64,000 nucleotides of DNA from Methyloversatilis discipulorum (GTDB taxonomy: Bacteria; Pseudomonadota; Gammaproteobacteria; Burkholderiales; Rhodocyclaceae). The stretch lies in the NCBI RefSeq assembly GCF_000527135.1, contig NZ_AZUP01000001.1:2232001-2296000 (forward strand), in the 5' to 3' direction. A model generated the notes under the pieces. The model was not told the origin of the DNA. It made no database searches and saw only the letters and a list, made by a program, of their open reading frames with translations. Positions 18,110 to 42,638 of the stretch are shown here, piece by piece. Position 1 is the stretch's first letter. Every line of letters begins with the position of its first letter. The position numbers and the translations under genes were made by a program.

Positions 18110-18244
18110 CACCGGCCGCTTCGCGAGCAGACCACCCGGCTTCCGGTGGGAGGCCGATCGCGACTGGCGGACCGTGCCTGAGCGTGGGTCACGCCAGCCC
18201 CCCCTGCACGACCTGTCCAGCGCTGAGACGTCGCACGCCCGCGC

Positions 18245-18258
18245 GAGACACCCGTCTC
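18245..18258 (+). promoter_or_regulatory. palindrome GAGAC-N4-GTCTC, candidate enhancer site for a sigma-54 activator
   Basis: GAGACACCCGTCTC is a perfect 5+5 inverted repeat centred about 92 bp before the GG of the -24 element. A further GAGAC half-site lies 20 bp upstream, at 18225. The same palindrome occurs upstream of the second PQQ dehydrogenase operon at 42625-42638. Confidence 0.6.
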
Positions 18259-18341
18259 CGTTGCGACCCCGAAAAGCGGTACACCCGTATCCCGCTGGCG
18301 ATTATCCCGGACCATGCCGGGCGCATTTCCCGGGTTTCCAT

Positions 18342-18356
18342 CGGCACCGATCTTGC
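18342..18356 (+). promoter_or_regulatory. sigma-54 (RpoN) -24/-12 promoter
   Basis: CGGCACCGATCTTGC fits the consensus TGGCAC-N5-TTGC at every defined position except the first, with the required GG-N10-GC spacing. It is 78 bp before the dehydrogenase ATG. Confidence 0.65.
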
Positions 18357-18433
18357 GTCGTCCTGGCACGCAGCGGCAGACCGCCGTTGCGTTCCACAGA
18401 CGAACACAACGAACTCGATTGGAGAGAGGAAAC

Positions 18434-20425
18434 ATGGCGATGCTGAATTCCGCGGGCGCTTTTCCCCGCGCAGCCAGGAAGACACTGTGGCTGTCCATCA
18501 TGCTCGGCGCAGCCCCGCTGGCGATGGCCGCTGCGGGCGACGGCAACTGGACCGAGTACAACGGCGACAAGGCCGGCTCGCGCTATCTGGCCGGCGGCAA
18601 GGTGAACGCACAGAGCGTGAAGTCGATGAAGGTGGCCTGGCGCTGGGCCATGCCGGACAACAAGATATGGCAGGACAACGCCGAACTGCGCACCTGGGTG
18701 AACCAGTCGACGCCGCTGGCGATCGACGGCGTGCTGTACTCCAGCTCGCCGATGGCGATGGTGTCGGCGATCGACGGCAAAACCGGCAAGACCTTGTGGA
18801 CCTACGACCCCAAGGCCTATATCGAAGGCACGCCGCCCAATCTGGGCTTCATCAGCCGCGGCCTGTCCTACTGGGCGAACGGTGAGGACAAGCGCATCCT
18901 GGTCGGCACCGGCGACGGCTACCTGATCGCGCTCAACGCGAAGACCGGCAAGCCGATCGAGTCCTGGGGCGACAAGGGCCGCATCGACATGACCAAGGGC
19001 CTGCGTCGCTTCGTCGACCGTTCGCTCGTTGCCCTCACTTCGCCACCCATCGTGTGCGGCAACACCATCGTGCCCAGTCTGGCTGTGCTCGATTCCTTCG
19101 CCGTCGGTCGCGCGCCGATGAAGAACCATCCGCCGGGCGACATCCAGGCCTTCGACATCCGCAGCGGCAAGCGTGTGTGGCATTTCGAACAGCCGCCGCA
19201 GGAAGGCCAGCCGGGCAACGAAACCTGGGAAGACGGTTCGTGGAAAACCACCGGCTCGGCAAACATGTGGGCGCGCCCGAGCTGCGACGAGGAACTGGGC
19301 CTGGTCTATCTGCCCTTCTCGACGCCGACCAATGACTTCTACGGCGGCCACCGCAAGGGCAACGGCCTGTTCGGCGAGTCGGTGGTGGCGCTCAACGCGA
19401 AGACCGGCAAGATCGCCTGGTACCAGCAGATCGTCCACCACGGCCTGTGGGACTACGACCTGCCGACCGCGCCGAACCTGATGGACCTCACCGTCAACGG
19501 CAAGAAGGTGAAGGCGCTGGCGCAGGTGACCAAACAGGGCTTCGTGTTCACATTCGACCGCAGCACCGGTGCGCCGGTATGGCCGATCACCGAAAAGCCG
19601 GTGCCGCAATCTACGGTGCCGGGCGAACGGTCCTCGCTCACGCAACCTTTCCCCAGCCTGCCCGCGCCCTTCGTGCAGCAGGGCGTCACCGAGGACGACC
19701 TGATCGACCTGACGCCGCAACTGAAGGAAGAGGCGAAGAAAATCCTGTCGCGCTACAACTACGGCCCGCTGTACACGCCGCCGACCATCGACAAGGCCGG
19801 CACGCTGCAGGTGCCGGGCGTACTTGGCGGCGCCAGCTGGGCCGGTGCCGCGCACAACCCGAAGACCAATGTGCTGTACGTGCCGTCCTTCACCATTCCC
19901 TTCGGAATCAAGCTGAAGAAGGAGAACGAAGGCGTGTACGACTACACCGGCACCTGGGCCGGCGTCGGCGGTCCGCAAGGTCTGCCGCTGTTCAAGCCCC
20001 CCTTCTCCACCGTCACCGCGATCGACATGAACACCGGCAAGCACCTGTGGCGCGTGCCGGCCGGCAAGGGCCCGGTCGATCACCCGGCGATCAAGGACCT
20101 GAAGCTGGATCGCGTCGGCGTGCCGCGCGAGAGCTTCATCGCGCTGACCGACGACGTGCTCTTTCTGGCACCGGAAGGTACGAACTCGGTGATCGGCCTG
20201 TCGTCGCGCGGCAATGCGCTGATCACGCAGGCGACCGCGGAAGAGAAGGAACCCTTCCTGTACGCGCACGACGCGCGCACCGGTGACGTGCTCGGCGAAG
20301 TGAAGCTGCCGGGTGCCGCCTTCGGCGCGCTGATGACCTATCGCGCCGGCGGCAAGCAGTACGTCGTGGTGCCGATCGGTGGCGCCGGCCTGCCGGCCGA
20401 GCTGGTGGCCGTCCAGGTCGATTGA
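18434..20425 (+). CDS. periplasmic PQQ-dependent dehydrogenase (glucose-dehydrogenase-like group, soluble)
   Basis: Quinoprotein of 663 residues with a signal peptide (about residues 1-33, ending PLAMAAAG) and an eight-bladed PQQ propeller, without the N-terminal membrane domain of Gcd. The start NWTEYNGDKAGSRYL is typical of the family. HHGLWDYDLPTAPNL (about residue 340) corresponds to the catalytic-Asp stretch HHDLWDMD of membrane glucose dehydrogenase. There is no adjacent Cys-Cys pair of the methanol dehydrogenase type. Substrate cannot be read from sequence; sugar, alcohol or aldehyde oxidation is possible. Electrons should go to the cytochrome c encoded next. RBS GGAGAGAGG precedes the ATG. 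Probably sigma-54 controlled. Confidence 0.85.
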   Translation: MAMLNSAGAFPRAARKTLWLSIMLGAAPLAMAAAGDGNWTEYNGDKAGSRYLAGGKVNAQSVKSMKVAWRWAMPDNKIWQDNAELRTWVNQSTPLAIDGVLYSSSPMAMVSAIDGKTGKTLWTYDPKAYIEGTPPNLGFISRGLSYWANGEDKRILVGTGDGYLIALNAKTGKPIESWGDKGRIDMTKGLRRFVDRSLVALTSPPIVCGNTIVPSLAVLDSFAVGRAPMKNHPPGDIQAFDIRSGKRVWHFEQPPQEGQPGNETWEDGSWKTTGSANMWARPSCDEELGLVYLPFSTPTNDFYGGHRKGNGLFGESVVALNAKTGKIAWYQQIVHHGLWDYDLPTAPNLMDLTVNGKKVKALAQVTKQGFVFTFDRSTGAPVWPITEKPVPQSTVPGERSSLTQPFPSLPAPFVQQGVTEDDLIDLTPQLKEEAKKILSRYNYGPLYTPPTIDKAGTLQVPGVLGGASWAGAAHNPKTNVLYVPSFTIPFGIKLKKENEGVYDYTGTWAGVGGPQGLPLFKPPFSTVTAIDMNTGKHLWRVPAGKGPVDHPAIKDLKLDRVGVPRESFIALTDDVLFLAPEGTNSVIGLSSRGNALITQATAEEKEPFLYAHDARTGDVLGEVKLPGAAFGALMTYRAGGKQYVVVPIGGAGLPAELVAVQVD

Positions 20426-20451
20426 GGCAGGACGCGGCAAGCCTGCGTCCG

Positions 20452-20481
20452 GACCGTGCCGCGCCGACGCGCGGCACGGTC
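20452..20481 (+). other. 13-bp perfect hairpin between dehydrogenase and cytochrome genes
   Basis: GACCGTGCCGCGC and GCGCGGCACGGTC flank a 4-nt loop (CGAC). It lies 26 bp after the dehydrogenase stop and 31 bp before the cytochrome ATG, with no T-run. It could stabilise the upstream mRNA or lower read-through to the cytochrome gene. Confidence 0.55.
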
Positions 20482-20512
20482 ATCAAGAACACGCACTACC
20501 CGGAACGGATCA

Positions 20513-20881
20513 ATGGATATACGGAAACTCACCTTCGCAGCCCTGATGAGCTGCATGGCTTCGGCGATGGCCTTCAACGCCGTACTGCCGGACAAGGCCG
20601 CGGAAGGCGCGGCACCCGCCGGCCCCGCCCCCTTCGACCTCGCCGACCCGGCCCGCATCAAGGCCGGCCAGGGCCGCTTCCAGTCCACCTGCGCCGACTA
20701 CTGCCACGGCCACAAGCCGGCGCTGTTTGTCGACCGCGAGGGGCTGGAAGCGGAATACGTATTCAACACCATCCGCGACGGCGGCAAGGGCGCAACGCCG
20801 ATGCCGCCCTGGGGCGAAGTGTTCACGCAGGAAGAGATCTGGGAACTGGTGGCCTACATCAAGTCCATCGGCAAGTGGTAG
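20513..20881 (+). CDS. monoheme cytochrome c with a CX3CH heme motif
   Basis: A 122-residue exported protein with a signal peptide ending at MASAMAFNA. It has a class I cytochrome fold (DPARIKAGQGRFQSTC at the heme, then the late helix EEIWELVAYIKSIGKW). The heme-binding site reads C-A-D-Y-C-H-G, so three residues, not two, separate the cysteines. The codons are tgc gcc gac tac tgc cac, so this is not a frame error. A Met axial ligand is offered by GATPMPPWG. It is probably the electron acceptor of the PQQ dehydrogenase upstream. Maturation by the standard Ccm system of a CX3CH site is not certain. Confidence 0.85.
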   Translation: MDIRKLTFAALMSCMASAMAFNAVLPDKAAEGAAPAGPAPFDLADPARIKAGQGRFQSTCADYCHGHKPALFVDREGLEAEYVFNTIRDGGKGATPMPPWGEVFTQEEIWELVAYIKSIGKW

Positions 20882-20900
20882 ACCGCCGTCCCCGGGTGCT

Positions 20901-21698
20901 TCAGGCGCGGCGACGGGCCGCCGCCGCGATCACGCCGAGGCCGGCCAGCATCAGCACGACCGCCGACGGCTCCGGCACCGCCGGCAGCGGCGGCAGCTCG
21001 CCGACCTGATCGCCGTCGAGCTCGATGTCGTACAGCCGGATCGACGCCACGCGGCCGTCGGCGAATTCGCCCTGACCGCCGCCCACGAGGTTGTCGGCGA
21101 AGAAGTGGATCAGGCGCGACGGGTTGGCTGCCGCGTAGGCGCTGAAATTCATCGAGGTCGAACTCAGCGTGAACTGGAAGATGCCGTCCATATAGCCGGT
21201 CACCGTGTCGTTGCCGTTGTTGGTCAGCGTGACGCGGTGGTATTCGCCATAGGTGAAGGGCGTCGGGCCGTCGCCGCTGGGCCACACCTCCAGGCGCTGG
21301 CCCGGATCGATGTAGAGCGCGTTGTCGCTCTGCCGGTTGGACACGCCGAAAATGTTCTCCCAGCTCGCCGTGTCGGCTTCGAACTGGAACACGATGTCGA
21401 CGGAATAGGCGTCGTCGGCATCGAGCAGCCCGCTGCTGTCGACGAACAGGCCGGCCTGCTGGCTGGGCGTGGCGTTGCCGTCGAAGCGGTACACCCAGCG
21501 CGATTCGCCGAATACGGTGTCCATCATGAAACCGCTGGTCGCCAGCGGATCGATGACGGACAGTGCAGGCTTTCCGGCTTCATCGGCGGCCAGCGTGTTG
21601 TTGAAGTTCCAGGTCGCCACCGCGGTCGGTGCAGCGGCCTGGGCCAGCGATGCCGCGCTCAGCAGCACGGTCGTCGCGGTCAGGGCAAGCAGTCTCAT
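20901..21698 (-). CDS. PEP-CTERM sorted protein with LamG-like domain
   Basis: Exported protein of 265 residues with an N-terminal signal peptide (MRLLALTATTVLLSAASLAQA). A concanavalin-like LamG/Laminin-G jelly-roll domain follows (ATWNFNNTLAADEAGKPAL, then RLYDIELDGDQVGELP). The C-terminal PEP-CTERM signal is VPEPSAVVLMLAGLG, then a hydrophobic helix and RRRA. PEP-CTERM proteins are cut by an exosortase and linked to exopolysaccharide/floc matrix. The start at MRLL is chosen because AAAGG lies 9 nt upstream; an in-frame upstream Met at 21725 lacks this. It is convergent with the cytochrome gene, 19 bp away. Confidence 0.82.
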   Translation of the reverse strand: MRLLALTATTVLLSAASLAQAAAPTAVATWNFNNTLAADEAGKPALSVIDPLATSGFMMDTVFGESRWVYRFDGNATPSQQAGLFVDSSGLLDADDAYSVDIVFQFEADTASWENIFGVSNRQSDNALYIDPGQRLEVWPSGDGPTPFTYGEYHRVTLTNNGNDTVTGYMDGIFQFTLSSTSMNFSAYAAANPSRLIHFFADNLVGGGQGEFADGRVASIRLYDIELDGDQVGELPPLPAVPEPSAVVLMLAGLGVIAAAARRRA

Positions 21699-21741
21699 TT
21701 CGTCAGCCTTTCGGATATCGGTCACTCGACAGCGGCTGACA

Positions 21742-21756
21742 GCAAAATCGGGGCCA
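21742..21756 (-). promoter_or_regulatory. sigma-54 -24/-12 element upstream of the LamG PEP-CTERM gene
   Basis: On the minus strand the site reads TGGCCCCGATTTTGC, with one mismatch to TGGCAC-N5-TTGC and exact GG-N10-GC spacing. Its GC is 44 bp before the start codon. RpoN control of PEP-CTERM genes with PrsK/PrsR is known in Zoogloea. Confidence 0.6.
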
Positions 21757-21834
21757 TCCAGACAGATCCTTGTTTCTTCGAGGAAATGACAGGCGGGCGT
21801 TGCCGCGGTGTCAGATATGCCGACAGGCAGGCCG

Positions 21835-23292
21835 TCAGGCGTGGTCGAGCAGGCGCGGCGGCGGCGGACATCCGCCCAGCACCCGCTCGATCGCCACGCA
21901 GGTCACCAGCAGCGCTTCGTCCTGCCAGCGTCGGCCGACGCACTGCAAGCCGACCGGCAGGCCGTCCTCGACACCGGCGGGCAGCACGACCACCGGACTG
22001 CCGGTCAGCGAAAACGGCGTCACCATGCCGATGGCACCCTCGACGAAGGGCAGGTGGGCGTCGTCGACCGGAATGTCGGGCGGGCGGCGCCACCACACCA
22101 GTTCGGACTGCGGATAGGCGGTGGTCGGCGCGACCGGGCACAGCCAGATGTCCCAGCTGTCGAGGAAGCTTTCAAGCGCGTGAACCATGCGGTCGCGCCG
22201 GTTCAGCGCACGGTTGTATCGCTGCGCGTCCAGCGCCAGCCCCTGCACGAAGGCGTGCGCGATCGGCTGGTCGCGCGTGACGAAGCGGCCCATCACGGCG
22301 ATCAGCCGACGTGCCAGCGCCGGCATGCCGAGCCCGATCTCGGTGCCGGCGAGCCAGCCGTAGGCCTGCCAGGCCTTGATCACGTCGAAACCTTCCGGGC
22401 AGCGCCGCTCGACGACGCAGCCGGCGGCTTGAAGCGCCGTCACCGTTTGCGCCAGTGCGGCACGCGTGCGGCGGCACAGCGGCAGGCCGCCGAACTCGTC
22501 CCACCACGCGATGCGCAGCGGCCGGGTCAGCGGCGGCGCCGGCTGTATCGGCAGGCGCGGCACTTCGACATCGAGCCCGTCCGGGCCGGCCAGCACCGCC
22601 AGCGCGGTCTGCAGGTCGGCGACTGACGGCGCCAGCGCGCCGAAGGACAGCAGGTGGCGCACGCTGCGCCGTCCGCCCGGCAGATGCGGAATGTGGCCAC
22701 TGCGCGGAATTCGGTTCTCGGTCGCCTTCAGCCCGGCCACGCCGCAGCAGGCAGCGGGTAGGCGGATCGAGCCGCCGATGTCGCTGCCCGGATCGATGTA
22801 CGAAAAGCCCATCGCCACGGCGGCCGCGCTGCCACCGGAACTGCCGCCTGGAGTGAGCGCCAGGTCCCAGGGATTACGCGTGGGGCCGAACAGAGGGCTC
22901 CAGCACTGCGGCGTAGCCGCCAGTTCCGGCAGATTGGTCTTGCCGACCAGCACCGCGCCGGCCGCCTTCAGCCGCGCGACGACGGTCGCGTCGGTCGCGG
23001 GCACGTGCTGCGCCAGCGGCGGATGGCTGGCGGTGGTGCGCAAGCCGGCGGTCTCGAATGCATCCTTCACCGTCATCGGCACGCCGAGCAGCGGCGGCAG
23101 CTCGCCACCTGCCGCACGCCGCGCATCGGCGGCGCGCGCAGCGGCGTATGCGCCGGCCTCGTCCAGTGTGACCACCGCATTGATGTCAGCGTTGTGCCGA
23201 CGGATGCGCGCGAGGCAGACCTCCAGCTCGTCGACGGCCGTGCTGTCGCCGCGTGCGATGCGGGCAGCGACGTCGAGTGCGGAGTCGGTCAT
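21835..23292 (-). CDS. amidase-signature family enzyme
   Basis: Serine hydrolase of 485 residues of the amidase signature family (AmiC/GatA relatives), cleaving amide bonds of small substrates. The Ser-cisSer-Lys triad can be seen: Lys in VLVGKTNLPELA, cis-Ser in GGSSGGSAAAVA and nucleophile Ser in DIGGSIRLPAACCG. The extra Cys pair after the nucleophile and the lack of a gatB/gatC neighbour argue against glutamyl-tRNA amidotransferase. The substrate is unknown. No signal peptide is seen. Confidence 0.88.
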   Translation of the reverse strand: MTDSALDVAARIARGDSTAVDELEVCLARIRRHNADINAVVTLDEAGAYAAARAADARRAAGGELPPLLGVPMTVKDAFETAGLRTTASHPPLAQHVPATDATVVARLKAAGAVLVGKTNLPELAATPQCWSPLFGPTRNPWDLALTPGGSSGGSAAAVAMGFSYIDPGSDIGGSIRLPAACCGVAGLKATENRIPRSGHIPHLPGGRRSVRHLLSFGALAPSVADLQTALAVLAGPDGLDVEVPRLPIQPAPPLTRPLRIAWWDEFGGLPLCRRTRAALAQTVTALQAAGCVVERRCPEGFDVIKAWQAYGWLAGTEIGLGMPALARRLIAVMGRFVTRDQPIAHAFVQGLALDAQRYNRALNRRDRMVHALESFLDSWDIWLCPVAPTTAYPQSELVWWRRPPDIPVDDAHLPFVEGAIGMVTPFSLTGSPVVVLPAGVEDGLPVGLQCVGRRWQDEALLVTCVAIERVLGGCPPPPRLLDHA

Positions 23293-23304
23293 GGCAGGGC
23301 CTGG

Positions 23305-24057
23305 TCAGCGCGCATTCGCGTACGCGATCACATCGCCGACCGAGCGTGCATCCGGCGCGTAGACGCTCATCGCGAAACCGGTCACGCCGAGGAAGAACGC
23401 CGTCAGTGCAAAGGGCAACGCCGTGCGCCGGCAGGCCGTCGCCAGCCAGTGCGGGCGATCGGTCGCCTTCAGGTGACGGTACAACGAGCAGGCGAGCACA
23501 CCATCGAGCAGCAGTTCGGCAAACAGCACCGGCGCGGCATACACGATGTACAGCGACGCCAGCGCCATGCCCAGCAGCAAGGCCAGCACGACGAGCGGAA
23601 TCGCCAGTTCGTCTGCGTCGACGGACGAGCCGGCTTCACGCACGACCGAGGGCAGCGCGTCGTTGTCGATGAGGCTTGACGACGACGCGTCGTCGAAGGA
23701 TCCGCCCGCGCCGCCTCCGCCGAACTTGCCACCGTTGCCGCTGAAACTGGCACCGTCACCGGAACAGGACGATGCGCCGGACAGGTCGGGCACGTCGACA
23801 TAGTCCTCCGTTCGCGTGTGCAGCCACAGCCAGAGCAGCCCCAGAAACACCAGATAGGCAAAGCCGAGCGCCAGCGGATAGCGCAGCGCCATGCTGTCGA
23901 CCCCGGCACGCAACAGCGCAAAGGACGCCACCAGACCGGCCCCATCCGTAAACGCCACGATCACCATCATCTGCAGGCGCGGCCAGGACTCGCTTTCGAT
24001 GCGGTGCTTCAGTCGCGCCAGCAGGACGGAACGGGAGTCGGAGAACTTATGGCGCAT
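23305..24057 (-). CDS. membrane protein with a Gly/Ser-rich central loop, function unknown
   Basis: A 250-residue protein starting MRHKFSDSRSVLLARLKHR, with two membrane helices near the N-terminus, a hydrophilic loop rich in Gly, Ser and Asp (about residues 100-140, with FSGNGGKFGGGGAGGSFDD), then three or four more helices. The loop resembles the GGGG-containing spacer of TPM/YgcG-like proteins, but no family can be named. An alternative Met lies 14 codons upstream (24099); neither start has a clear ribosome site. The gene follows the amidase start by 12 bp on the same strand and may be upstream of it in one transcript. Confidence 0.6.
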   Translation of the reverse strand: MRHKFSDSRSVLLARLKHRIESESWPRLQMMVIVAFTDGAGLVASFALLRAGVDSMALRYPLALGFAYLVFLGLLWLWLHTRTEDYVDVPDLSGASSCSGDGASFSGNGGKFGGGGAGGSFDDASSSSLIDNDALPSVVREAGSSVDADELAIPLVVLALLLGMALASLYIVYAAPVLFAELLLDGVLACSLYRHLKATDRPHWLATACRRTALPFALTAFFLGVTGFAMSVYAPDARSVGDVIAYANAR

Positions 24058-24159
24058 GGCGAAGGTGAAGGCGGGACAGATGCCGTGACGATAGCGCATC
24101 CGGATGGATGATTCCGGAATGGCCGTCGGCCGCCGTGCAGGACGATGTGACCGGCGCCA

Positions 24160-24173
24160 TTGACACCGATCAA
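24160..24173 (+). promoter_or_regulatory. FNR/ANR box upstream of the dksA/traR-like gene
   Basis: TTGACACCGATCAA is a near-perfect FNR/ANR site (TTGAC-N4-ATCAA). Its centre is 41.5 bp before position 24208, the class II spacing, and the gene starts at 24223 behind AAGGAGGA, so the leader would be very short. It lies between divergent genes and might also affect the membrane-protein gene. Confidence 0.55.
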
Positions 24174-24222
24174 CGCCGCGCGCGCGCGCCGGTGACAGCA
24201 TGGATGCAAGGAGGACGACACC

Positions 24223-24612
24223 ATGAGCACCCCGCTTACCCAGGCCGACCGCGAACAGCTGGAACGCCGTCTGCGCGCGCGCCACGACGCACTGACCGCC
24301 CACATCCAGGCACAGCTTGCCGGCCGCACACGGGCCGAACACGCGCGCGAAGTACTGCTGCAGGACGGCGACGACGCGCCACAGCGCAGCGCCGACCGTG
24401 AGATCGATCTGGCGATGACCGATCTCGAAACGGTCGAACTGGCCGCGCTCGACGCCGCGCTGCAGCGTCTGGACGACGGTCACTACGGTACGTGCGCCGA
24501 ATGCGGCACCGACATCCCACTCGCCCGGCTGCAGGCGGAACCGCAGGCCGCGCTGTGCGTCGGCTGTCAGGGCGCCCGCGAACGGGGGCGCCCGCACGCG
24601 GCCAGCCTCTGA
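24223..24612 (+). CDS. DksA/TraR C4 zinc finger family protein
   Basis: Small cytoplasmic regulator-like protein of 129 residues: an N-terminal helical hairpin (REQLERRLRARHDALTAHIQ) and a C-terminal C4 zinc finger (CAEC at about 92-95 and CVGC at about 113-116), with GHYGTCAECGTDIPLARLQA between. DksA/TraR proteins enter the RNA polymerase secondary channel. This one is shorter than DksA, and the hairpin tip has Asp residues (QDGDDAP and IDLAMTDLET), so it is a paralogue rather than housekeeping DksA. A strong Shine-Dalgarno and an FNR-like box precede it, suggesting induction at low oxygen. Confidence 0.85.
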   Translation: MSTPLTQADREQLERRLRARHDALTAHIQAQLAGRTRAEHAREVLLQDGDDAPQRSADREIDLAMTDLETVELAALDAALQRLDDGHYGTCAECGTDIPLARLQAEPQAALCVGCQGARERGRPHAASL

Positions 24613-25079
24613 GGCGCACGCTCTGACCGATGACGGCCGCCCCGTGCGAGCGGCCCTGTCCGCGACGCCGCCGCACGCGCTTCGACGCAGGCGGCCGGCC
24701 TTGATCAAGGCCGCTGTCGGGGTCAGAAGACCCCTCCCACAGAGTCCTGATTCAGGCCCAGGCGCGGACCGAGCGCATCCCCCTGTGGGAGCGGTCTTCT
24801 GACCGCGACGCGGCCTCCGCTGTCCGCGGGCTCCGATACCGGCCATTGTCGGGGTCAGCGGCCCCCTCCCACAGAGTCCTGATTCAGACCCAGGTCGCGG
24901 ATCGGGCGCATCCCCTTGTGGGAGCGGTCTTCTGACCGCGACGCGGCCGCCGCAGCCCACCGGCTTCGATACAGGCCGCGGTCGGGGGCTGAAGTCCCTT
25001 CCCACAGAAGCACCTCCGGACTTGGATTCACCGGCGCCAACCCCATCTGACCGTCGACATCCTTCCGGGGAGCAACACC
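24613..25079. other. gene-free region filled by REP elements
   Basis: No gene is supported in this 467-bp interval. It starts with a 16-bp palindrome GGCCTTGATCAAGGCC (24697-24712), continues with the tandem REP array at 24712-25012, and ends in the trxC leader with the ribosome site GGGGAG. Confidence 0.6.
24712..25012. repeat. tandem array of REP-pair units (about 132-bp period)
   Basis: Two full units and a third cut short repeat with a period of 132-133 bp: TCGGGGTCAG begins at 24717 and 24849, and TCGGGGGCTG at 24982. Each full unit holds two REPs in opposite orientation: TCGGGGTCAGAAGACCCC-TCCCACAG, then about 40 bp later TGTGGGAGCGGTCTTCTGAC-CGCGACGCGG. REP pairs of this layout (REPINs) are spread by RAYT transposases in other genera; no RAYT gene is in this window. 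Confidence 0.8.
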
Positions 25080-25505: not shown

Positions 25506-25561
25506 AAGATCACCCGCTCCGGTGCCCGCCTTCCTAAAGGAACGGCGGTCAGGGACTCCGA

Positions 25562-25661
25562 TTCAGGCCGCTATCGCGAGCAAGCTTGCTCCCACAAAGT
25601 GCTCGCTTACTGCCGCCGGGGAGGCGCCGTTTTGTGGGAGCAAGCTTGGTCGCGATGCGGC
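25562..25661. repeat. inverted REP pair (REPIN) downstream of trxC
   Basis: Two REPs face each other: TCGCGAGCAAGCTTGCTCCC-ACAAA (25573-25597) and TTTTGTGGGAGCAAGCTTGG-TCGCGATGCGG (25630-25660). The stem sequence differs from the 24.7-kb array (GCAAGC instead of GCGGTC), but the flanks GTGGGAG and CGCGA are the same. Confidence 0.75.
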
Positions 25662-25730
25662 ATTGGCTGGCCGTCGCTTTCGATCCGGGACGGGATCGCG
25701 AGCACGCTCACTCCGACAACGACACAGCCC

Positions 25731-35543: not shown

Positions 35544-35545
35544 GT

Positions 35546-36781
35546 TCAGCTCCGGCGCGGCGTGATGGAGACCGCCTGAACCGCCGGCCCGGCGCGGTCC
35601 GGCCGCGGCCGGATCATCATCGGGAAGAAGCGCCACAGGTAGAGCGCGAAGGCGAGCGCCCATGCTGTCGCGGCCAGGTGCAGCAGGTGCACCGACGCGG
35701 CCGACGGCTGCAGTGCGGCCAGGCGCAGCACGACTGCGGCGATCACCAGCGCATAGGCCGCGACCATGCTGCGGTCGGTGTCCAGCGGCCGGCCGAGGTG
35801 ACCGAGCGCGGTGCGCGTGATCATGCCGATGATGAGCACCGAAAAACCACCCATCGCGATCACATGCACGTGCAGTGCAGCCGGCGCCGGGCTGCCTGCG
35901 GCGTGCGCCGCCGCCAGCAGCAGACCGGCACCGAGCGATACGTAGCCGACGTACAGAATCCACAGCAACGGCTTGTGCAGTACGCGCCACGGCTTCCAGC
36001 TCGCCCACTGCACGAGCGTAATGCCACCGGCCGCCGCGAGCGCGGCGGCCTGCACCAGCGGCCAGCCGGCGAGCAGACCGAGCACCGCCAGCGCACTGGC
36101 GATCAACTGCGCCATGCCGCTTTTCAGATGAGTGGGCACGGTCAGGCCGGGCACTGCGCGCATGGCGAAGAAAGGAATGACGCGTCGTGCGACCAGCAGC
36201 GTGAGCAGCGCCATCACCAGCAGACCGGCATTGAAATGCTGCATCAGCGTCGCGTAGTCGCCGGCACGGGTGGCCATCAGGAAGGCGGCGTCGGTCATGC
36301 CAAGCGCCAGCAGCATGAAGGGCACGGCGTAGTTGCGGGTGTTGCGCGACAGCAGCACCGAGCGCCCGAGTGCCGCTGCGGCCAGCGCGAAGAAGGCGAC
36401 GTCGGCCAGCGCACCGACCAGGAAGGCGGCGTCGCCCGGCAGCAGGAAGGCGGCGCGCGCCACCATCCAGGGCAGGCAGAGCGCGGCCAGCGCACGCCCT
36501 TCGATCGGGTTGATGCCAGTCCAGGCGCCGCCGGCGGTCATCAGGAAGCCGACCGCTATGGTGGCGACGAAGCCCCACAGCATTTCATGCGCGTGCCAGG
36601 CCAGGCCGCCCAACGTGCCACCCGCCCACTGCGGCGCGAATATCCACAACGCCACGGCAAGCAGTGCCCACAGCGCACCGGCCAGGTAGAGCGGGCGGAA
36701 GCCCATTTCGAGGAAGGCGTCGGCCGAAGGCGCGTGCGCCGGGCCGGTCGCCGGTTCGTCGATGGAAAGCAGGATGGCCAT
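35546..36781 (-). CDS. nnrS: NnrS heme/copper membrane protein
   Basis: A 411-residue protein with twelve predicted membrane helices. The NnrS pattern is clear: AFLEMGFRPLYLAGALWALL at the start, WHAHEMLWGFVATIAVGFLM, MTAGGAWTGINPIEGR and later HVHVIAMGGFSVLIIGMITR (His-rich). NnrS binds heme and copper in Rhodobacter and protects cells from NO damage. It is first in the minus-strand operon nnrS-nsrR-DUF59-(134 aa)-NnrS-like-5-FCL-ravA-viaA-DUF364, whose genes mostly overlap. An FNR/DNR-like site lies upstream. Confidence 0.92.
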   Translation of the reverse strand: MAILLSIDEPATGPAHAPSADAFLEMGFRPLYLAGALWALLAVALWIFAPQWAGGTLGGLAWHAHEMLWGFVATIAVGFLMTAGGAWTGINPIEGRALAALCLPWMVARAAFLLPGDAAFLVGALADVAFFALAAAALGRSVLLSRNTRNYAVPFMLLALGMTDAAFLMATRAGDYATLMQHFNAGLLVMALLTLLVARRVIPFFAMRAVPGLTVPTHLKSGMAQLIASALAVLGLLAGWPLVQAAALAAAGGITLVQWASWKPWRVLHKPLLWILYVGYVSLGAGLLLAAAHAAGSPAPAALHVHVIAMGGFSVLIIGMITRTALGHLGRPLDTDRSMVAAYALVIAAVVLRLAALQPSAASVHLLHLAATAWALAFALYLWRFFPMMIRPRPDRAGPAVQAVSITPRRS

Positions 36782-36838
36782 GTTCGCGGTCCGTCAGGTT
36801 GACGGCAGCAAACATATATCTTCGAGGAATCTTAAAAC

Positions 36839-36852
36839 TTGATACAGGACAA
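36839..36852 (-). promoter_or_regulatory. FNR/DNR-type box upstream of nnrS
   Basis: The minus strand reads TTGTC-CTGT-ATCAA: right half perfect, left half one mismatch from TTGAC. Class II spacing gives a start near 36804. TATATG at 36813-36818 is a fitting -10 element. An A/T-rich AAGAT...AAGATATAT stretch (36816-36833) overlaps the -10 and is a loose candidate for NsrR binding. Confidence 0.5.
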
Positions 36853-36876
36853 GCCGGGCGTTGTCGCCCACCGGAA

Positions 36877-37206
36877 TCAGCGGCTGGCGGAATCCTGTTC
36901 GCTGCGGATGACCTCACCCTCGATGATGCGACCGCCGCTCGCCGGCACGTCGCCGAAGGGCGTCTGCATAGGATTGTCCATCTGTTCGCGCATGCGCCGG
37001 CGCAGTTCCCGCGTCTTCCACCACATGAAGCCCCAGAACAGCAGGCCGCCGACCACCGCCACCGCGACGATCACCACCGAGAACATGAGCCCGAGCACCA
37101 GCAGGCCGCCCGCGGCAATAAGCGCGAACAGCTTGCCGAAGAAGCCCTTGGGCTGGAGGTGGATCTGACGGCCGTGCAGGCGCCGGGAGGATGGATCGGT
37201 GTACAT
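36877..37206 (-). CDS. small membrane protein, function unknown
   Basis: A 109-residue protein: basic N-terminus (MYTDPSSRRLHGRQIHLQPK), two closely spaced hydrophobic helices (FALIAAGGLLVLGLMFSVVI and VAVVGGLLFWGFMWW), then a hydrophilic tail with RRRMREQMDNPMQTPFGD and IIEGEVIRSEQ. The tail ending in a GRIIEGEVI-type stretch is seen in many small betaproteobacterial inner-membrane proteins. No name can be given. It is upstream of nnrS on the same strand but separated by the nnrS promoter region. Confidence 0.7.
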   Translation of the reverse strand: MYTDPSSRRLHGRQIHLQPKGFFGKLFALIAAGGLLVLGLMFSVVIVAVAVVGGLLFWGFMWWKTRELRRRMREQMDNPMQTPFGDVPASGGRIIEGEVIRSEQDSASR

Positions 37207-37304
37207 GCGTGGGCGCCCCTGTCTGTGCGAACTGTCGATATGGGGCTGACCGCAGGCGCTTGCAAGGGTTCGCCGCGATGGCCCGAGGCGCGGGGTCAGA
37301 GGTC

Positions 37305-37475
37305 CTGCTGTGGGAGGGGTCTTCTGGCCCCGACAGCGGCCTGTATTGAAGCCCGCGGACTGCAGACGCCGCGTCGCGGTCAGAAGACCGCTCCCACAGG
37401 GGTGGGCGCGCGATCCACGATCTGAGCCTGGGGCCGGGGTTCTGTGGGAGGGGTCTTCTGACCCCGACAGCGGCC
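37305..37475. repeat. cluster of three REP elements
   Basis: Three REPs in alternating orientation: CTGTGGGAGGGGTCTTCTGG-CCCCGACAGCGG (37308-37338), GTCGCGGTCAGAAGACCGCT-CCCACAGG (37372-37399, inverted) and CTGTGGGAGGGGTCTTCTGA-CCCCGACAGCGG (37442-37473). Stems are GGGGTC/GACCCC (or GGCCCC) and GCGGTC/GACCGC. They fill the gap between the small membrane protein and the PilZ gene. Confidence 0.75.
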
Positions 37476-37506
37476 GGGACCAGAACCTGCAGCCGGAGGG
37501 CTGCGA

Positions 37507-38226
37507 CTACAGCCGCCGGTGCGGCTGCTCCACCAGGTTCTGATAGACGTAGCTCTTCAGGAACACCGAGGTCTGCGCGTTGATGTCGTCGAACTCGACG
37601 CCATAAGCAGGTTCGCCGGTGTCGGGGATCTCGTGACGGTTGCGGATATGGCCTCCGACGACGACACGGGTGCGCACCTTGTGGATGTCCAGTATCAGCT
37701 CCAGCGACACTTTGTCGCCCACCTCGCGCCCCGGCTGCCACACGCGCACTTCGGCGCCGGTGGCACTGAGGTTGGTGACCACGGTGGGCACCGGCTCGTC
37801 GGCGTCCATCACGCGCGCCGTGATCGACGTGGCGATGCGCTCGGCATTGCGGATCTGCCGCATCGAAATGCGGCGCGGGAATTCGAGATGCAGGTATTCG
37901 AAGGGGCGCACCGAACGTTTGCCGACGACGGTGCTGAAACCATAGGCGTGGCGACCGGAGAAGGCGCGCACGCTGATGGTGTCACCTTCGATCGGGGGGC
38001 CGGCCCAGGGACGCGTATCCGGCATCGTCACCAGCACGCTCAGCTCGTTCACCCAGCCGATCAGCTTGACCACGCCCGGCTGGTCGCCGAGCTTGGCCGG
38101 CGGTTCGATCACCATGCGGTCACCGACCTTGAGGCCGATGTCCTTGAACAGCACATCCTGCAGCGTGGTCGCGGCGTCGCCGGTCTTGACGGCGTCTTCG
38201 ATGGGGCTGGTGGCTCTGGTGTTCAT
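37507..38226 (-). CDS. YcgR-like flagellar brake protein with PilZ domain
   Basis: A 239-residue cytoplasmic protein with an N-terminal YcgR/PilZN domain (DIGLKVGDRMVIEPPAKLGD and VVGKRSVRPFEYLHLEFPRR) and a C-terminal PilZ domain. The c-di-GMP-binding parts are the Arg-rich start RRISMRQIRNAERI and TNLSATGAEV, which matches D/NxSxxG. YcgR proteins slow the flagellar motor when c-di-GMP rises. Other flagellar genes are not in the window. A clear ribosome site is not seen at the chosen ATG. Confidence 0.85.
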   Translation of the reverse strand: MNTRATSPIEDAVKTGDAATTLQDVLFKDIGLKVGDRMVIEPPAKLGDQPGVVKLIGWVNELSVLVTMPDTRPWAGPPIEGDTISVRAFSGRHAYGFSTVVGKRSVRPFEYLHLEFPRRISMRQIRNAERIATSITARVMDADEPVPTVVTNLSATGAEVRVWQPGREVGDKVSLELILDIHKVRTRVVVGGHIRNRHEIPDTGEPAYGVEFDDINAQTSVFLKSYVYQNLVEQPHRRL

Positions 38227-38362
38227 TGTTGTTCCGACACGGCATGAGGCGTTGATCGGCTACCCGAAACGGTCTTAACGATTCATCCGCGTGGAACTGA
38301 AGGGGCCGGAGGCCGCCGGCGCAAAAAAAATTTACATTTCACGCACCGGCGGGCCAGCGCCT

Positions 38363-38833
38363 TCAGAGCAGGTGCTTCGCCGCCTCCAGACCCTTCTGCG
38401 CGCACTCCTCGTCCTCCGCCTCGCTGCCACCGCTGACGCCGACGCCACCGATGTGCGCGCCCTTCGACGTCATGATGGGCAGGCCACCGATGATGGAAGT
38501 GGTGCGCGGCAGCACTTCCGCGCCCGGAATGCCCTTGGCCAGATCGCGGAACTGACGGGTGGACACCGGCAGGCTGGCCGAGGTGTCGGCCTTCAGTCGC
38601 GCGACCTGCACGCTGATCAGGATGCTGCCGTCCATCCGGCTGAAGTACTTCGGGTTGCCGGCGCTGTCATGCACCGCGGTGATCATGCGCCAGCCCTTGC
38701 CGGCGGCGTACTTCTCGCAGCCCTCGGCAATGGCCTTGGCGGTGGCCAGGTCGAGCGCCGGCTGCGCGGTCTGTGCGTATGCGCAGCCGGCCGCGAGGGC
38801 AAGGGCGAGCGCTGCGGTGATGCGTGCTTTCAT
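38363..38833 (-). CDS. GlcG/HbpS-family exported heme-binding-like protein
   Basis: A 156-residue protein with a signal peptide (MKARITAALALALAAGCAYA) and a GlcG/HbpS fold: LDLATAKAIAEGCEKYAAGK, MITAVHDSAGNPKYFSRMDG, TSIIGGLPIMTSKGAHIGGV and GVSGGSEAEDEECAQKGLEA. Members are found in operons of PQQ alcohol dehydrogenases and glycolate use. HbpS itself binds heme. It is the last gene of the PQQ dehydrogenase operon, 31 bp after a cytochrome gene. Its role, possibly cofactor or redox sensing in the periplasm, is unproven. Confidence 0.85.
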   Translation of the reverse strand: MKARITAALALALAAGCAYAQTAQPALDLATAKAIAEGCEKYAAGKGWRMITAVHDSAGNPKYFSRMDGSILISVQVARLKADTSASLPVSTRQFRDLAKGIPGAEVLPRTTSIIGGLPIMTSKGAHIGGVGVSGGSEAEDEECAQKGLEAAKHLL

Positions 38834-38864
38834 ATCGTGTTCTCCTTGTTGTGGTGTGACAGGC

Positions 38865-39296
38865 TCAGAACCAGTTTTCGTCGTCGGCCGCGTCGGCCTT
38901 CTTGTCGGCGATCTGCACGCGCTTCGCCTCCTCGCGCAGGAAAGCGATGATCTGGCGGATCTCTTCCGGCTTGAGCGCCGGGCCGAAGCCGCCCATCTGG
39001 GTGTTTGGCCGGCCTTCGGAAATGATCTTGAACATGTAGTCGTCGCTGTTCGCGCCACCCGGGCCCCAGGCGCCCTTGACCAGTTGCGGGCCCTTGCCGC
39101 CCTTGCCGCGCGAGTTGTGGCACTGCTGGCAGTTGCGACCGAACAGCTCCTCGCCTGCGCTGGCGTCGCTGGCGGCCGGCGTATTGCCGCCGCCGGGACC
39201 GCCCGGACCGAAGGCCGAAACCTGGGTGACGCCGAGCGTCAGCATGAGGGCCGCAACGCCGCGCGCGACCCTGCGTATCAGGGGGTAGGTCATCAA
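38865..39296 (-). CDS. periplasmic monoheme cytochrome c (first of a near-duplicate pair)
   Basis: A 143-residue exported protein with signal peptide (RRVARGVAALMLTLGVTQVSA), a Gly/Pro-rich linker, a heme site CQQCH in ELFGRNCQQCHNSRGKGGKG and a Met ligand in GRPNTQMGGFGP. The last helix is EEIRQIIAFLREEAKRVQ and the tail is rich in Asp/Glu and aromatic residues (DDENWF). The neighbour encoded at 39356-39775 shares an identical core of over 35 residues around the heme. Likely an electron acceptor of the PQQ dehydrogenase of this operon. ATG at 39293 is an alternative start. Confidence 0.88.
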   Translation of the reverse strand: MMTYPLIRRVARGVAALMLTLGVTQVSAFGPGGPGGGNTPAASDASAGEELFGRNCQQCHNSRGKGGKGPQLVKGAWGPGGANSDDYMFKIISEGRPNTQMGGFGPALKPEEIRQIIAFLREEAKRVQIADKKADAADDENWF

Positions 39297-39355
39297 ATGT
39301 GCTCCATCAGAAATGCGTGAAATCCGGCCGCACCGAACGCCAGCCGGACGCTGGA

Positions 39356-39775
39356 TCAGAACCAGAGATCGTCCTCGGCACCGGCCTTCGATTTCTCGGC
39401 CGCCTTGACGCGTTTCGCTTCCTCGCGCAGGAAGGCGACGATCTGCCAGATTTCCTGCTGCGTCAGCGCCGGGCCGAAGCCGCCCATCTGCGTGTTCGGG
39501 CGCCCGTTGGCAATGATTCCGAACATGTAGCCGTCACTGTTGGCACCGCCCGGCCCCCAGGCGCCCTTGACCAGCTGCGGGCCCTTGCCGCCCTTGCCGC
39601 GCGAGTTGTGACACTGCTGGCAGTTGCGGCCGAACAGCTCTTCGCCCGCTTTCGCAGCTTCCGGGTCGTTGGTCAGCGGATTGGTGGCCGGTATGGCGTC
39701 GTCGGCCTGCGCTCCGGCGATCAGGCCAGCGAGCAGCAGGCTCGCTGCGATGACACGAAACATCTGCAACTCCAT
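39356..39775 (-). CDS. periplasmic monoheme cytochrome c (second of a near-duplicate pair)
   Basis: A 139-residue protein with signal peptide (MELQMFRVIAASLLLAGLIAGAQA), heme site CQQCH, Met ligand in GRPNTQMGGFGPALTQQEIW and acidic aromatic tail (AEDDLWF). Its core around the heme is nearly identical to the adjacent cytochrome, also at the DNA level, while the signal peptides and linkers differ. This points to tandem duplication with a conserved core. It lies 42 bp after the binding-protein gene and 60 bp before the other cytochrome gene. Confidence 0.88.
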   Translation of the reverse strand: MELQMFRVIAASLLLAGLIAGAQADDAIPATNPLTNDPEAAKAGEELFGRNCQQCHNSRGKGGKGPQLVKGAWGPGGANSDGYMFGIIANGRPNTQMGGFGPALTQQEIWQIVAFLREEAKRVKAAEKSKAGAEDDLWF

Positions 39776-39818
39776 TCGAATGCGGTGGCGCCAGCGACGA
39801 GCCGCCAGCGCCGGTGAA

Positions 39819-40577
39819 TCACGGGAAGCCGGCCCGACGGGCGGCGGCGTCCAGCGTGCCGTCGGCCTTGAGCGCCGCCAGCGCCTGGTTCACGGCGCTG
39901 CCGAGCGCCGCATCGGCGCGCCGGCTGGCGATGACGAAGCGGGTGGTCAGCGACGGTTCGTTCAGCACCTGGCGTACGCCGATGCCGTCCGGCGGCGGAG
40001 CGTCAGCCAGGCGGCCGGCCCACACCAGTGCGCCAGCGATCTCGCCGCGCGCGAGCGCGTCCATCAACTGCCGGTGATTGCCGTAGGGCGTGCGGTTGTA
40101 GCCACCGGCCAGCAGGTGCAGGTCGGCCGGCGTGGCGGTGACGGCACCGACCTTGGCCTTGCCCAGATCGGACAGCGACTTCACCTTGCCGGCGACCGGC
40201 GCGACCAGCACGTAGCCGACCGACAGATAGGGCGTGGAGGCAACCAGGCCGCGTTCGGCCAGGTCCTCACCGCCGCCCTCGGTTTCCGGCAGGCCGACGA
40301 ACAGATCGCAGGTGCCGGCCTGTATCGACTGCTTGAGCGCGCGCCCCATGCCGCCGCGCGACGGCACGACGATCCAGTTCAGTTTCGCTTCGCGGCCGAG
40401 CTTCGCCGCCAGCGCCTGCACGACGTCGACGTCGAGGCCACGGGCGCCATCACTGCTGGACGAGAACGGTTCGTTGCCGTCGACCACGCAGGCGGTGAGC
40501 GGCGCTGCCGACACGAGTGAAGAAAGCGCCAGTGCGAGCGCGCAGGCGACGGTGCGGATTGCGGAGGACTTCGTCAT
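39819..40577 (-). CDS. periplasmic solute-binding-like protein of the MoxJ/XoxJ type
   Basis: A 252-residue protein with signal peptide (TVACALALALSSLVSA) and a family 3 extracellular solute-binding fold: LTACVVDGNEPFSSSSDGAR, LDVDVVQALAAKLGREAKLN and LFVGLPETEGGGEDLAERGL. In methylotroph operons such proteins (MxaJ, XoxJ) sit next to the dehydrogenase and cytochrome and help assembly or activation of the enzyme. This is the order seen here, so an XoxJ-like role is preferred over a transport role; no ABC permease or ATPase is nearby. Confidence 0.8.
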   Translation of the reverse strand: MTKSSAIRTVACALALALSSLVSAAPLTACVVDGNEPFSSSSDGARGLDVDVVQALAAKLGREAKLNWIVVPSRGGMGRALKQSIQAGTCDLFVGLPETEGGGEDLAERGLVASTPYLSVGYVLVAPVAGKVKSLSDLGKAKVGAVTATPADLHLLAGGYNRTPYGNHRQLMDALARGEIAGALVWAGRLADAPPPDGIGVRQVLNEPSLTTRFVIASRRADAALGSAVNQALAALKADGTLDAAARRAGFP

Positions 40578-40614
40578 GACGATGCGGGGCGCCCTTGCGG
40601 GCGCCCCGGCTCCA

Positions 40615-42378
40615 TTACTCGGCGAGGCCGAAGATCATCATGCCGCCGCCGCGGTTCTGGTGCTTGAACAGCTCGTCATACACCAGCGGCCACAGGCTGC
40701 CGCCGCCCGGGCCGTACACGATGGCCACGTACTGCTTGCCGTCGACGGTGAAGGTGGTCGGGTTGCCGTGAATGCCGGTACCGACGTTGAAGCGCCACAG
40801 CGCCTCGCCGGTGTCGTCGCGCATCGCATGGAACCAGCCCTCGGCGTCGCCTGCAAACACCACGCCGCCCGCGGTCGCCAGCATGCCGCTGGTCGCCGGC
40901 GTGCTCTGCGGGCGCTGCCACACCAGTTCGCCCGTGGTGGCGTTGAAGGCCTTGATGCCGCCGGTGTAGGGGTTGGCCTTCAGCACCTTGGACGACAGGA
41001 ACCACTCGCCGCGCTTCCATTCCATCTTCTTGGCCTGCACGTCCATCGAGCTGTCAATGTAGGGCACGTAGAGCAGCTTGGTCTGCGGACTGTAGGCCGC
41101 GGGGTGCCATTCCTTGCCACCATCGAGAATCGGGGCAATGTCCTTCACCACCTTGTCGTAGCCCGGCACCTTGTCCGGATTGACGATCGGACGGCAGTTG
41201 TCGCCCCAGCTCTTGACCCAGTTCACGCGTGCGATCGGCACCACCCAGTTGCACTTGCCGGTGGTGCGGTCGATCGAGTACAGGTGACCGTTGCGATCGC
41301 CGTGCAGCCACACCTTGCGGCCCTTCTCGTCGTCCACCAGGATGGTTTCGTTGTTGCCGTCGTAGTCCCAGGCATCGTTCGGCGTGTACTGGAAGTGGTT
41401 CTTGATCTTGCCGGTACGCGCATCCATGATCAGCGTGGAGTTGGTGTACAGGTTGTCGCCCTTGCGCACGCTGGGATCGAAGTCCGGCGCCGGATTGCCC
41501 ACACCCCAGTAGATGGTGTTGGTCTTCGCTTCGTAATTGCCGGTCAGCCAGGCCGAGCCGCCACCGGTGCGCCACGAGTCGTTGGCCCAGGTCTTGGCGT
41601 TCGGATCGTTGGCGTCGATCGGCCGGGTGGTCGTCTGCCACACGATTTCGCCAGTGTCCGGATCGAGCGCGGTGATCTTGCCGACGTTGGCGCCGACGTC
41701 ACCACCCGAGTTGCCGACCACGATCTTGCCGTCGGCCACCAGCGGCATCGAGGTGTAGATCTCTCCGCTCGTGTAGTCGCCCAGCTTCTTCTCCCACACC
41801 ACCTTGCCGGTCGTGTTGTTCAGCGCGACGACGTGGGTATCCAGCGTCGCCATGTAGACCATGTCCTTGTACACGGCCACGCCGCGGTTCACCGCCTCGC
41901 AGCACAGGCGCGGGCCGAGGTCGCCCGGCAGCGAGCGCTCGTACTTCCAGATCATGCGGCCGGTCAGGCCGTCGATCGAGAACACCTTGTTCTGGCTGGC
42001 AGTCACGTAGATGCGGCCATTCACCACCGTGGTCTGGCTGTCCTGCGCATCATTGACGCCGAAGGACAGGTTCCACTTCGGCACCAGCTTCTTCACGTTG
42101 TCCTGGGTCACCTGACGCAGCTGCGAGAAGCGCGTGGCCTGGTAGTCCTTGCCGTAGTGCAGCCAGTTGTTGGCGTCCTTGTCGGCGTGGATGAGCATGT
42201 CGTCGCTGACGTAGTTCGGCCGCCACTTGAAGGTGGCTTCGAGTACGTTGATGCCGAGCGGGGGTTCCGGATCCTCGGCGTGAACGACCATCGGGGCGAG
42301 CAGCAGCGCTGCCAGCAGACTCCCTGCAACCGAACTCAATGCGCCGGGCCGCAGTGCGCGGCCGTTGTGCTTGTTCAT
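40615..42378 (-). CDS. PQQ-dependent methanol/ethanol dehydrogenase, lanthanide-type active site
   Basis: A 587-residue periplasmic quinoprotein with signal peptide (LLAALLLAPMVVHAE) and an eight-bladed propeller. PQQ-ring residues are present: the adjacent cysteine pair and Glu in RLCCEAVNRGVAV, and the catalytic Asp in PNDAWDYDGNNETI. In that motif the Asp two residues after the catalytic Asp (D-Y-D) is the mark of lanthanide-dependent XoxF/ExaF/PedH enzymes; calcium enzymes have Ala or Ser there. The substrate may be methanol, ethanol or other short alcohols. GGAGGAAGCC precedes the ATG. It is first in an operon with an XoxJ-like protein, two cytochromes and a GlcG-like protein. Confidence 0.9.
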   Translation of the reverse strand: MNKHNGRALRPGALSSVAGSLLAALLLAPMVVHAEDPEPPLGINVLEATFKWRPNYVSDDMLIHADKDANNWLHYGKDYQATRFSQLRQVTQDNVKKLVPKWNLSFGVNDAQDSQTTVVNGRIYVTASQNKVFSIDGLTGRMIWKYERSLPGDLGPRLCCEAVNRGVAVYKDMVYMATLDTHVVALNNTTGKVVWEKKLGDYTSGEIYTSMPLVADGKIVVGNSGGDVGANVGKITALDPDTGEIVWQTTTRPIDANDPNAKTWANDSWRTGGGSAWLTGNYEAKTNTIYWGVGNPAPDFDPSVRKGDNLYTNSTLIMDARTGKIKNHFQYTPNDAWDYDGNNETILVDDEKGRKVWLHGDRNGHLYSIDRTTGKCNWVVPIARVNWVKSWGDNCRPIVNPDKVPGYDKVVKDIAPILDGGKEWHPAAYSPQTKLLYVPYIDSSMDVQAKKMEWKRGEWFLSSKVLKANPYTGGIKAFNATTGELVWQRPQSTPATSGMLATAGGVVFAGDAEGWFHAMRDDTGEALWRFNVGTGIHGNPTTFTVDGKQYVAIVYGPGGGSLWPLVYDELFKHQNRGGGMMIFGLAE

Positions 42379-42488
42379 CAGGCTTCCTCCGTTGTTGTGG
42401 ATGCGCATGCCCGGTCACCGGCCCGGTTTTTATCGGCCGGTACCTGCGGAACTTCCTGCGTTCCGATGACACACGCAGGCATACGCCT

Positions 42489-42503
42489 GCAGCATTCGTG
42501 CCA
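42489..42503 (-). promoter_or_regulatory. sigma-54 -24/-12 promoter of the PQQ alcohol dehydrogenase operon
   Basis: The minus strand reads TGGCACGAATGCTGC. All six bases of the -24 block match TGGCAC, the GG-N10-GC spacing is exact, and the -12 block is CTGC instead of TTGC. The GC is about 110 bp before the ATG. Confidence 0.7.
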
Positions 42504-42624
42504 CGGATGCGGTGTCGGATCGGTTGCAGAGGAAATCCGGGAACAGGCGGCGCTATCCGGCGGAAGGGATGCCGACCCGCCGTTTGCAGGAGGTCGTCCC
42601 TGAGACAGTCGGAGGCGGTTGGAT

Positions 42625-42638
42625 GAGACAGCTGTCTC
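42625..42638 (-). promoter_or_regulatory. palindrome GAGAC-N4-GTCTC, candidate enhancer site
   Basis: GAGACAGCTGTCTC is a perfect 14-bp palindrome about 130 bp upstream of the -24 GG, a normal distance for a bacterial enhancer-binding protein. The same 5+5 arms are upstream of the other PQQ dehydrogenase gene at 18245-18258. Confidence 0.65.

Follow-up and report, generated by a model that had tools for sequence, protein, structure and literature searches.

Several described systems resemble the one reported here in part. In the AcoR/acoXABC regulons of Cupriavidus, Bacillus and Pseudomonas putida, as in our case, the gene for an AcoR-type sigma-54 activator lies beside acoXABC. According to the accessible parts of the respective papers, the AcoR set of P. 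putida comprises acoABC, bdhA and acoX (PMC10943186), and a sigma-54 AcoR regulon, acoABCL, has been predicted in Clostridium (PMC6615313). For Ralstonia solanacearum, the text available to us reports that rpoN1 is required for growth on ethanol and names an AcoR homologue as the predicted regulator of the acetaldehyde dehydrogenase ExaC; that text, unlike the present analysis, assigns no quinoprotein gene to AcoR and gives no binding palindrome (PMC4676750). BmoR of Thauera butanivorans is an alcohol-responsive sigma-54 activator that acts from an inverted repeat and, in the accessible part of the source, drives the butane monooxygenase promoter (PMC8899819); its likeness to our system lies in the type of activator and the inverted repeat. 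On the enzyme side, PedE and PedH of P. putida oxidise (2S,3S)-2,3-butanediol to acetoin, which acetoin dehydrogenase then cleaves (PMC8427195, available excerpt). Like the operons below, the Pseudomonas ped/exa cluster contains PQQ alcohol dehydrogenases, cytochrome c and a periplasmic binding protein, whereas its local regulators, as far as the excerpt of the source goes, are of the LuxR and two-component types, with no local sigma-54 activator (PMC12997753).

Compared with the known AcoR regulons, the set predicted here in Methyloversatilis discipulorum adds three quinoprotein operons, of which two are located 1.25 Mb away from acoR, and the bdhA gene of the P. putida set was not seen in the stretch read around acoXABC. 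The new point would be that several quinoprotein operons, including two distant ones, share one palindrome; a link of AcoR or of the palindrome with quinoproteins was not found in the open-access literature by title or abstract start. Judging from sequence comparison, we consider it likely that the two PQQ dehydrogenase operons analysed below belong to one sigma-54 regulon whose activator is the AcoR-type protein encoded at C1:3527672-3529777.

The window, that is, the whole stretch of DNA analysed, comprises 64,000 nt (GCF_000527135.1, NZ_AZUP01000001.1, positions 2,232,001-2,296,000). It contains a PQQ dehydrogenase operon from 18434 on the plus strand (op1) and another from 42378 on the minus strand (op2), both given in window coordinates; coordinates on contig C1 of the same genome are used for acoR, for further sites and for op3, a third quinoprotein operon that is preceded by a porin gene and adjoins acoR. 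Elsewhere in the window, at 3822-13623, the translations, judged by eye, indicate two NarK-like transporters followed by narGHJI-like nitrate reductase genes. Palindromes were compared with the bare core GAGAC-N4-GTCTC or with a refined enhancer motif derived from homologues, TGAGACA-N2-TGTCTCA, and sigma-54-like elements (GG-N10-GC with TGGCACG-N4-TTGCW-like sequence) were scored against 12 consensus letters. The features of the two operons are as follows.

18224-18230, plus strand: op1 upstream half-site TGAGACG (TGAGACR conserved in 6/6 aligned genus sequences)
18244-18259, plus strand: op1 putative enhancer palindrome CGAGACACCCGTCTCC, 3 mismatches to TGAGACA-N2-TGTCTCA
18342-18357, plus strand: op1 sigma-54 -24/-12 element CGGCACCGATCTTGCG, 9/12, conserved in the genus alignment
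18434-20425, plus strand: op1 PQQ beta-propeller dehydrogenase (Pfam PF01011, 599.5 bits)
20513-20881, plus strand: op1 small c-type cytochrome gene (PF13442)
38865-39296, minus strand: op2 second c-type cytochrome (PF13442, PF00034)
39356-39775, minus strand: op2 c-type cytochrome (PF13442, PF00034)
39819-40577, minus strand: op2 periplasmic binding protein, weakly MoxJ/XoxJ-like (PF00497; TIGR03871 45.1 bits, cut-off 212.15)
40615-42378, minus strand: op2 PQQ alcohol dehydrogenase of the methanol/ethanol family with WDYD motif (TIGR03075 551 bits, cut-off 480.05)
42488-42503, minus strand: op2 sigma-54 -24/-12 element TGGCACGAATGCTGCA, 11/12
42601-42607, minus strand: op2 half-site of the preliminary description (gene strand: TGTCTCA), not conserved within the genus
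42624-42639, minus strand: op2 putative main enhancer palindrome CGAGACAGCTGTCTCA, 1 mismatch; at most 2 mismatches in 11/11 genus orthologues
42649-42664, minus strand: op2 accessory imperfect palindrome TGCGACATTTGTAGCG, 4 mismatches, 25 bp upstream of the main site

The two dehydrogenases belong to different families. The best solved relatives of the op2 enzyme are quinoprotein ethanol dehydrogenases, and its WDYD motif is found likewise in the op1 and op3 dehydrogenases. The second Asp in the DYD motif, together with a requirement for lanthanide, marks lanthanide-type PQQ dehydrogenases, and going by the motif the op2 enzyme may be of the lanthanide type. The op1 protein had been labeled as glucose-type; this is loose, because its TIGR03074 score of 388.5 bits falls short of the 832.65 cut-off, with a match that starts at profile position 151. 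The combination of a TIGR03074 score above cut-off and an N-terminal membrane region, by which a membrane glucose/quinate/shikimate dehydrogenase would be recognised, was not found in it, and by its sequence the op1 enzyme is a divergent relative of this family.

The preliminary description had reported the same layout upstream of both operons, and the elements of this layout were confirmed at the stated coordinates. The exact bare core occurs as GAGACACCCGTCTC at 18245-18258 and as GAGACAGCTGTCTC at 42625-42638, and the window holds no other copy even when one mismatch is allowed. The -24/-12 cores with GG-N10-GC spacing are also present before both operons (CGGCACCGATCTTGC at 18342-18356, plus strand; TGGCACGAATGCTGC at 42489-42503, minus strand). 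No other element in the window scores as high as that of op2, the only one at 11/12, and the op1 element is one of 45 strings that score at least 9/12 on either strand. Both GAGAC half-sites that had been noted (18225 and 42602) exist, and that of op1 is conserved in 6/6 sequences, but that of op2 is not conserved; the conserved partner of the op2 main site is the imperfect palindrome at 42649-42664, on the opposite side.

The bare core by itself proves little, since its count in the genome and its 1-mismatch count in the window are both at chance. Base composition predicts 0.07 exact copies per 64 kb and 4.4 per genome, and the genome contains four; likewise, two window matches at one mismatch are at chance level (shuffle mean 2.28, with at least two matches in 67 of 100 shuffles). 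Of the four copies, the two in the window precede sigma-54-like elements, and one is an orphan. PQQ-synthesis genes, whose recurrence the preliminary description had suggested checking, were not noticed beside the sites read. As a motif, the bare core was rejected: it is present in 75 of 101 family genomes, and its count in the organism's own genome equals chance. In the family genomes, most bare-core copies among the matches listed are without the A...T extension. With the flanking A/T added (GAGACA-N2-TGTCTC), only 0.12 copies are expected in the genome, and three of the four exact copies fit, the op1 copy being the misfit. The orphan, at C1:2649190-2649205, is intergenic, between lipoprotein-like and plastocyanin-like genes, and occupies the same place in relatives G182 and G226; no sigma-54-like element of at least 8 was detected within 350 bp of it.

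One further exact palindrome, TGAGACAGCTGTCTCA at 3529917-3529932, bears on the identity of the activator. It has an AcoR-type activator gene on one side and the divergent acoX-acoA-acoB-acoC-lipA genes on the other, and it is the only zero-mismatch refined site in the genome; the aco and lip names are assigned from domains and the typical gene order. Thus, an AcoR/NtrC-type activator gene, which the preliminary description had proposed to look for near other palindromes, adjoins the zero-mismatch copy. The gene, C1:3527672-3529777, encodes a sigma-54 interaction domain and a Fis-type HTH and lies beside acoXABC. AcoR-type activators carry an N-terminal GAF-type sensor domain; residues 1-343 of the protein gave no Pfam domain match. 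A sigma-54 element scoring 11/12, TGGCACGACAGATGCA, faces acoX. The operator shows 0 mismatches at acoX, 1 at op2 and 3 at op1. Next to acoR, a weaker site pair (3523368 and 3523412), which came from a search for the extended palindrome allowing up to 3 mismatches, with a 9/12 sigma-54 element, TGGCATGAATGCTGCC, downstream of it, lies before the porin gene and the third PQQ dehydrogenase gene, op3. The genome has a single rpoN gene (one PF04552 match).

The acoR-linked arrangement is conserved. In 12/12 genus orthologues, the matched region of acoR is preceded, at a distance of 155-171 bp, by a palindrome with zero mismatches, which is accompanied by a weaker, 4-mismatch site 22 bp away, and an 11/12 -24/-12 element faces acoX 147-148 bp from the palindrome. 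The 13 genus genomes contain no other zero-mismatch site. Zoogloea shows the same arrangement with 0 mismatches and Azoarcus with 2; these two genera have the closest named acoR orthologues among the matches listed (62-64%). More distant acoR-like genes are mostly without it: 3 of 20 loci have a site with at most 4 mismatches within 500 bp upstream, and 3 of 80 a site with at most 2 mismatches anywhere. A GATGATT block between the palindrome and the acoX promoter is conserved in 12/12 genus sequences and is possibly a site for a bending protein.

At op2, three blocks ahead of the start region are conserved in the genus alignment, namely the accessory palindrome (3-4 mismatches in 11/11 orthologues), the main palindrome and the -24/-12 element. 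The main site is also kept, at no more than 2 mismatches, in 4/4 fetched g36 orthologues with their own promoter. In g49 and g60 a porin gene precedes op2, and each of the four porin promoters that were scored carries a site with 3 mismatches. Five genus members that closely resemble one another have both arms of the op2 site altered together to TGAGACGTTCGTCTCA; this paired change is perhaps one event, and it is the pattern expected of a symmetric site. The op1 sites are weaker. Each of the nine op1 promoters scored in the genus and g67 has a site within 4 mismatches (three at 2, four at 3 and two at 4), with 3-4 mismatches in 6 of the 7 genus promoters scored, and op1 is the weakest match. 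The 6/6 aligned genus sequences also share a conserved block, ATNCCGGGNGCATTTCCC, at about 18312-18331, immediately ahead of the op1 -24 element. It should be noted that orthologues are kin and that these conservation counts are not independent of one another.

We then compared sites and elements, pairing a palindrome with a sigma-54-like element 40-260 bp downstream of it and keeping the best-scoring pair, within 420 bp upstream of regulon promoters and 900 bp upstream of control PQQ dehydrogenase genes. Before the 45 window elements of at least 9/12, only op2 and op1 have a refined palindrome with at most 4 mismatches (1 and 3, respectively), and the other 43 have 5-8. Among relatives, 42/42 regulon promoters scored have a site of at most 4 mismatches before a sigma-54-like element. 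This count is without op2 of G194, the op2 fragment of G215, op1 of G275 (where a contig end cuts the porin frame) and of G129 (45% identical), most genus op3 promoters, and 10 of the 12 genus acoX promoters together with those of Zoogloea and Azoarcus, which were scored later and were all consistent. Upstream of other PQQ dehydrogenase genes (13 from the genus and nine more distant; locus L316, where no dehydrogenase was found, was omitted), 0/22 regions have such a site before an element of at least 8, the lowest being 5 mismatches, although in 7/22 the element used is 827-893 bp upstream and perhaps belongs to another gene. Two of the 22 have a 4-mismatch match within 700 bp, out of range of any element. 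A sigma-54 element of 10 or 11 is present within 420 bp in 13 of these controls (the other nine score 6-9), and quinoprotein genes here may thus often be preceded by sigma-54-like promoters. Judged on these comparisons, the refined palindrome is the mark of a subset of quinoprotein genes.

Refined sites also outnumber those of a control genome-wide: at up to 3 mismatches, the organism's own genome has 36 against 20 for the reversed control, and at up to 2 mismatches, the 13 genus genomes have 60 against 11. A regulon made up of every 2-mismatch site was rejected, as coordinate comparison places only 30 of the 60 at named operons: 12 at acoR, 11 at op2, 6 at op3 and 1 at op1, with a possible seventh op3 site in G257. 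Sites that were read and had no operon assignment are C1:2649190, C1:3891948, G005 3147388, G152 2806281 (inside an open frame) and one on C62 of G295. The site at C1:3891948-3891963 has 2 mismatches and lies 65 bp before a gene that we presume, from resemblance, to encode methionine sulfoxide reductase A; similar strings occur in G182, G226 and G283.

Gene linkage adds to this picture. In the genome analysed, 24 kb separate op1 from op2, and acoR is about 1.25 Mb away from both. In g49 and g60, acoR clusters with a porin-op2 operon and an op3 operon in 4/4 genomes read, and within the genus G005 has op2, op3 and acoR within about 13 kb. The g36 genomes G287 and G275 have a porin-op1 series beside acoR; in G094 and G190, op1 was absent from the stretch read around acoR. 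Op1, op2 and acoR were found all together in no genome read. The simplest reading of these gene orders would be that once-clustered operons were later scattered and retained their sites. Presence patterns are as follows: G152, the sole genus member without acoR, is also without op1 and op2, and acoR occurs without op1 in five genus genomes, namely G005, G243, G271 and G283, which have op2, and G257, which has neither. The proposal of one enhancer-binding activator for both operons is therefore supported by the acoR-linked palindrome, by conservation, by its absence from 22/22 controls and by clustering.

It is possible, though we regard it as unlikely, that the enhancer is a real sigma-54 site but that another AcoR-like paralogue (2191782, 1278244, 263511 or 714442) acts on it at op1 and op2, or that more than one does so, their specificities overlapping. 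The genome encodes 26 sigma-54 activator domains, several of them AcoR-like; 1278244 has a 3-mismatch site, TGAGACAGGTGTAGCG, upstream of itself; and op1 in two g67 genomes lies about 9 kb from an activator only 39-41% identical to acoR and from acoA/acoB-like genes. However, a relative of 2191782 (50-52% identity to acoR) is present in only 6 of 13 genus genomes, and the op2 site is retained in six genomes that have no such relative. In addition, 2191782-type loci are without an upstream site of their own (6/6), and the palindrome is missing at the PQQ dehydrogenase genes beside 2191782 and 1278244. Further PQQ alcohol dehydrogenase genes are located at C1:2194760-2196268, 1280518-1282152 and 2377093-2378730; the first two adjoin their own AcoR-like activators, 2191782 and 1278244, respectively, which suggests paired paralogues.

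Binding of a repressor or other DNA-binding protein to the palindrome, with the -24/-12 strings used independently or unused, is very improbable. It would accommodate the orphan copy, and the site is close enough to acoR for autorepression; moreover, acoR is without its own element of at least 9 within 600 bp upstream on the same strand at 10 of 12 genus loci. The tight spacing between palindrome and -24/-12 element (133-136 bp at op2 across the genus, and the nearly fixed 147-148 bp at acoX) argues against it. That a common palindrome stands before weak sigma-54-like strings merely by chance would fit the bare-core statistics (4.4 expected, 4 found; 1-mismatch window count at chance) and yet is hardly credible, being contradicted by conservation in several genera, separation from controls and linkage to acoR.

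Regulation by AcoR thus remains our preferred reading. Points that weigh against it are the weak op1 sites and the 3-mismatch sites of the g49/g60 porin promoters, the roughly 30 of 60 genus sites outside the named operons, the orphan copy, the AcoR-like paralogues, and the genus genomes in which acoR occurs without op1 or, in one case, without op2 as well. The putative enhancer, TGAGACA-N2-TGTCTCA, usually pairs a main site with a weaker one at a distance of 20-44 bp and lies about 70-180 bp ahead of the -24/-12 element. AcoR would presumably occupy the paired sites in oligomeric form, reach sigma-54 polymerase by looping and use ATP to open the promoter. Its predicted targets are acoXABC (acetoin dehydrogenase), the porin and quinoprotein operon beside acoR, op1 and op2. 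The quinoproteins would oxidise alcohols in the periplasm, and our guess is that these might include 2,3-butanediol, yielding acetoin, that AcoABC would cleave the oxidation product, and that the inducer could be acetoin or a related carbonyl compound. By analogy, the quinoproteins might replace BdhA here; ethanol or other alcohols are equally possible substrates.

The occurrence of the same site before two alcohol-oxidation operons and acoR suggests that one regulator probably couples periplasmic alcohol oxidation and acetoin breakdown. More tentatively, and with less than even confidence, we propose that an acetoin- or carbonyl-sensing AcoR may be a master switch for three quinoprotein operons of two enzyme families and for acetoin dehydrogenase, so that the product of alcohol oxidation would feed forward on its own periplasmic production, the regulon having stayed intact after the once-clustered operons were scattered. 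If true, the AcoR/sigma-54 route would explain how periplasmic alcohol oxidation is coupled to acetoin breakdown in this bacterial family, the 14-letter palindrome would allow the regulon to be predicted in other genomes, and quinoprotein enzymes of unknown substrate would gain an inducer hypothesis.
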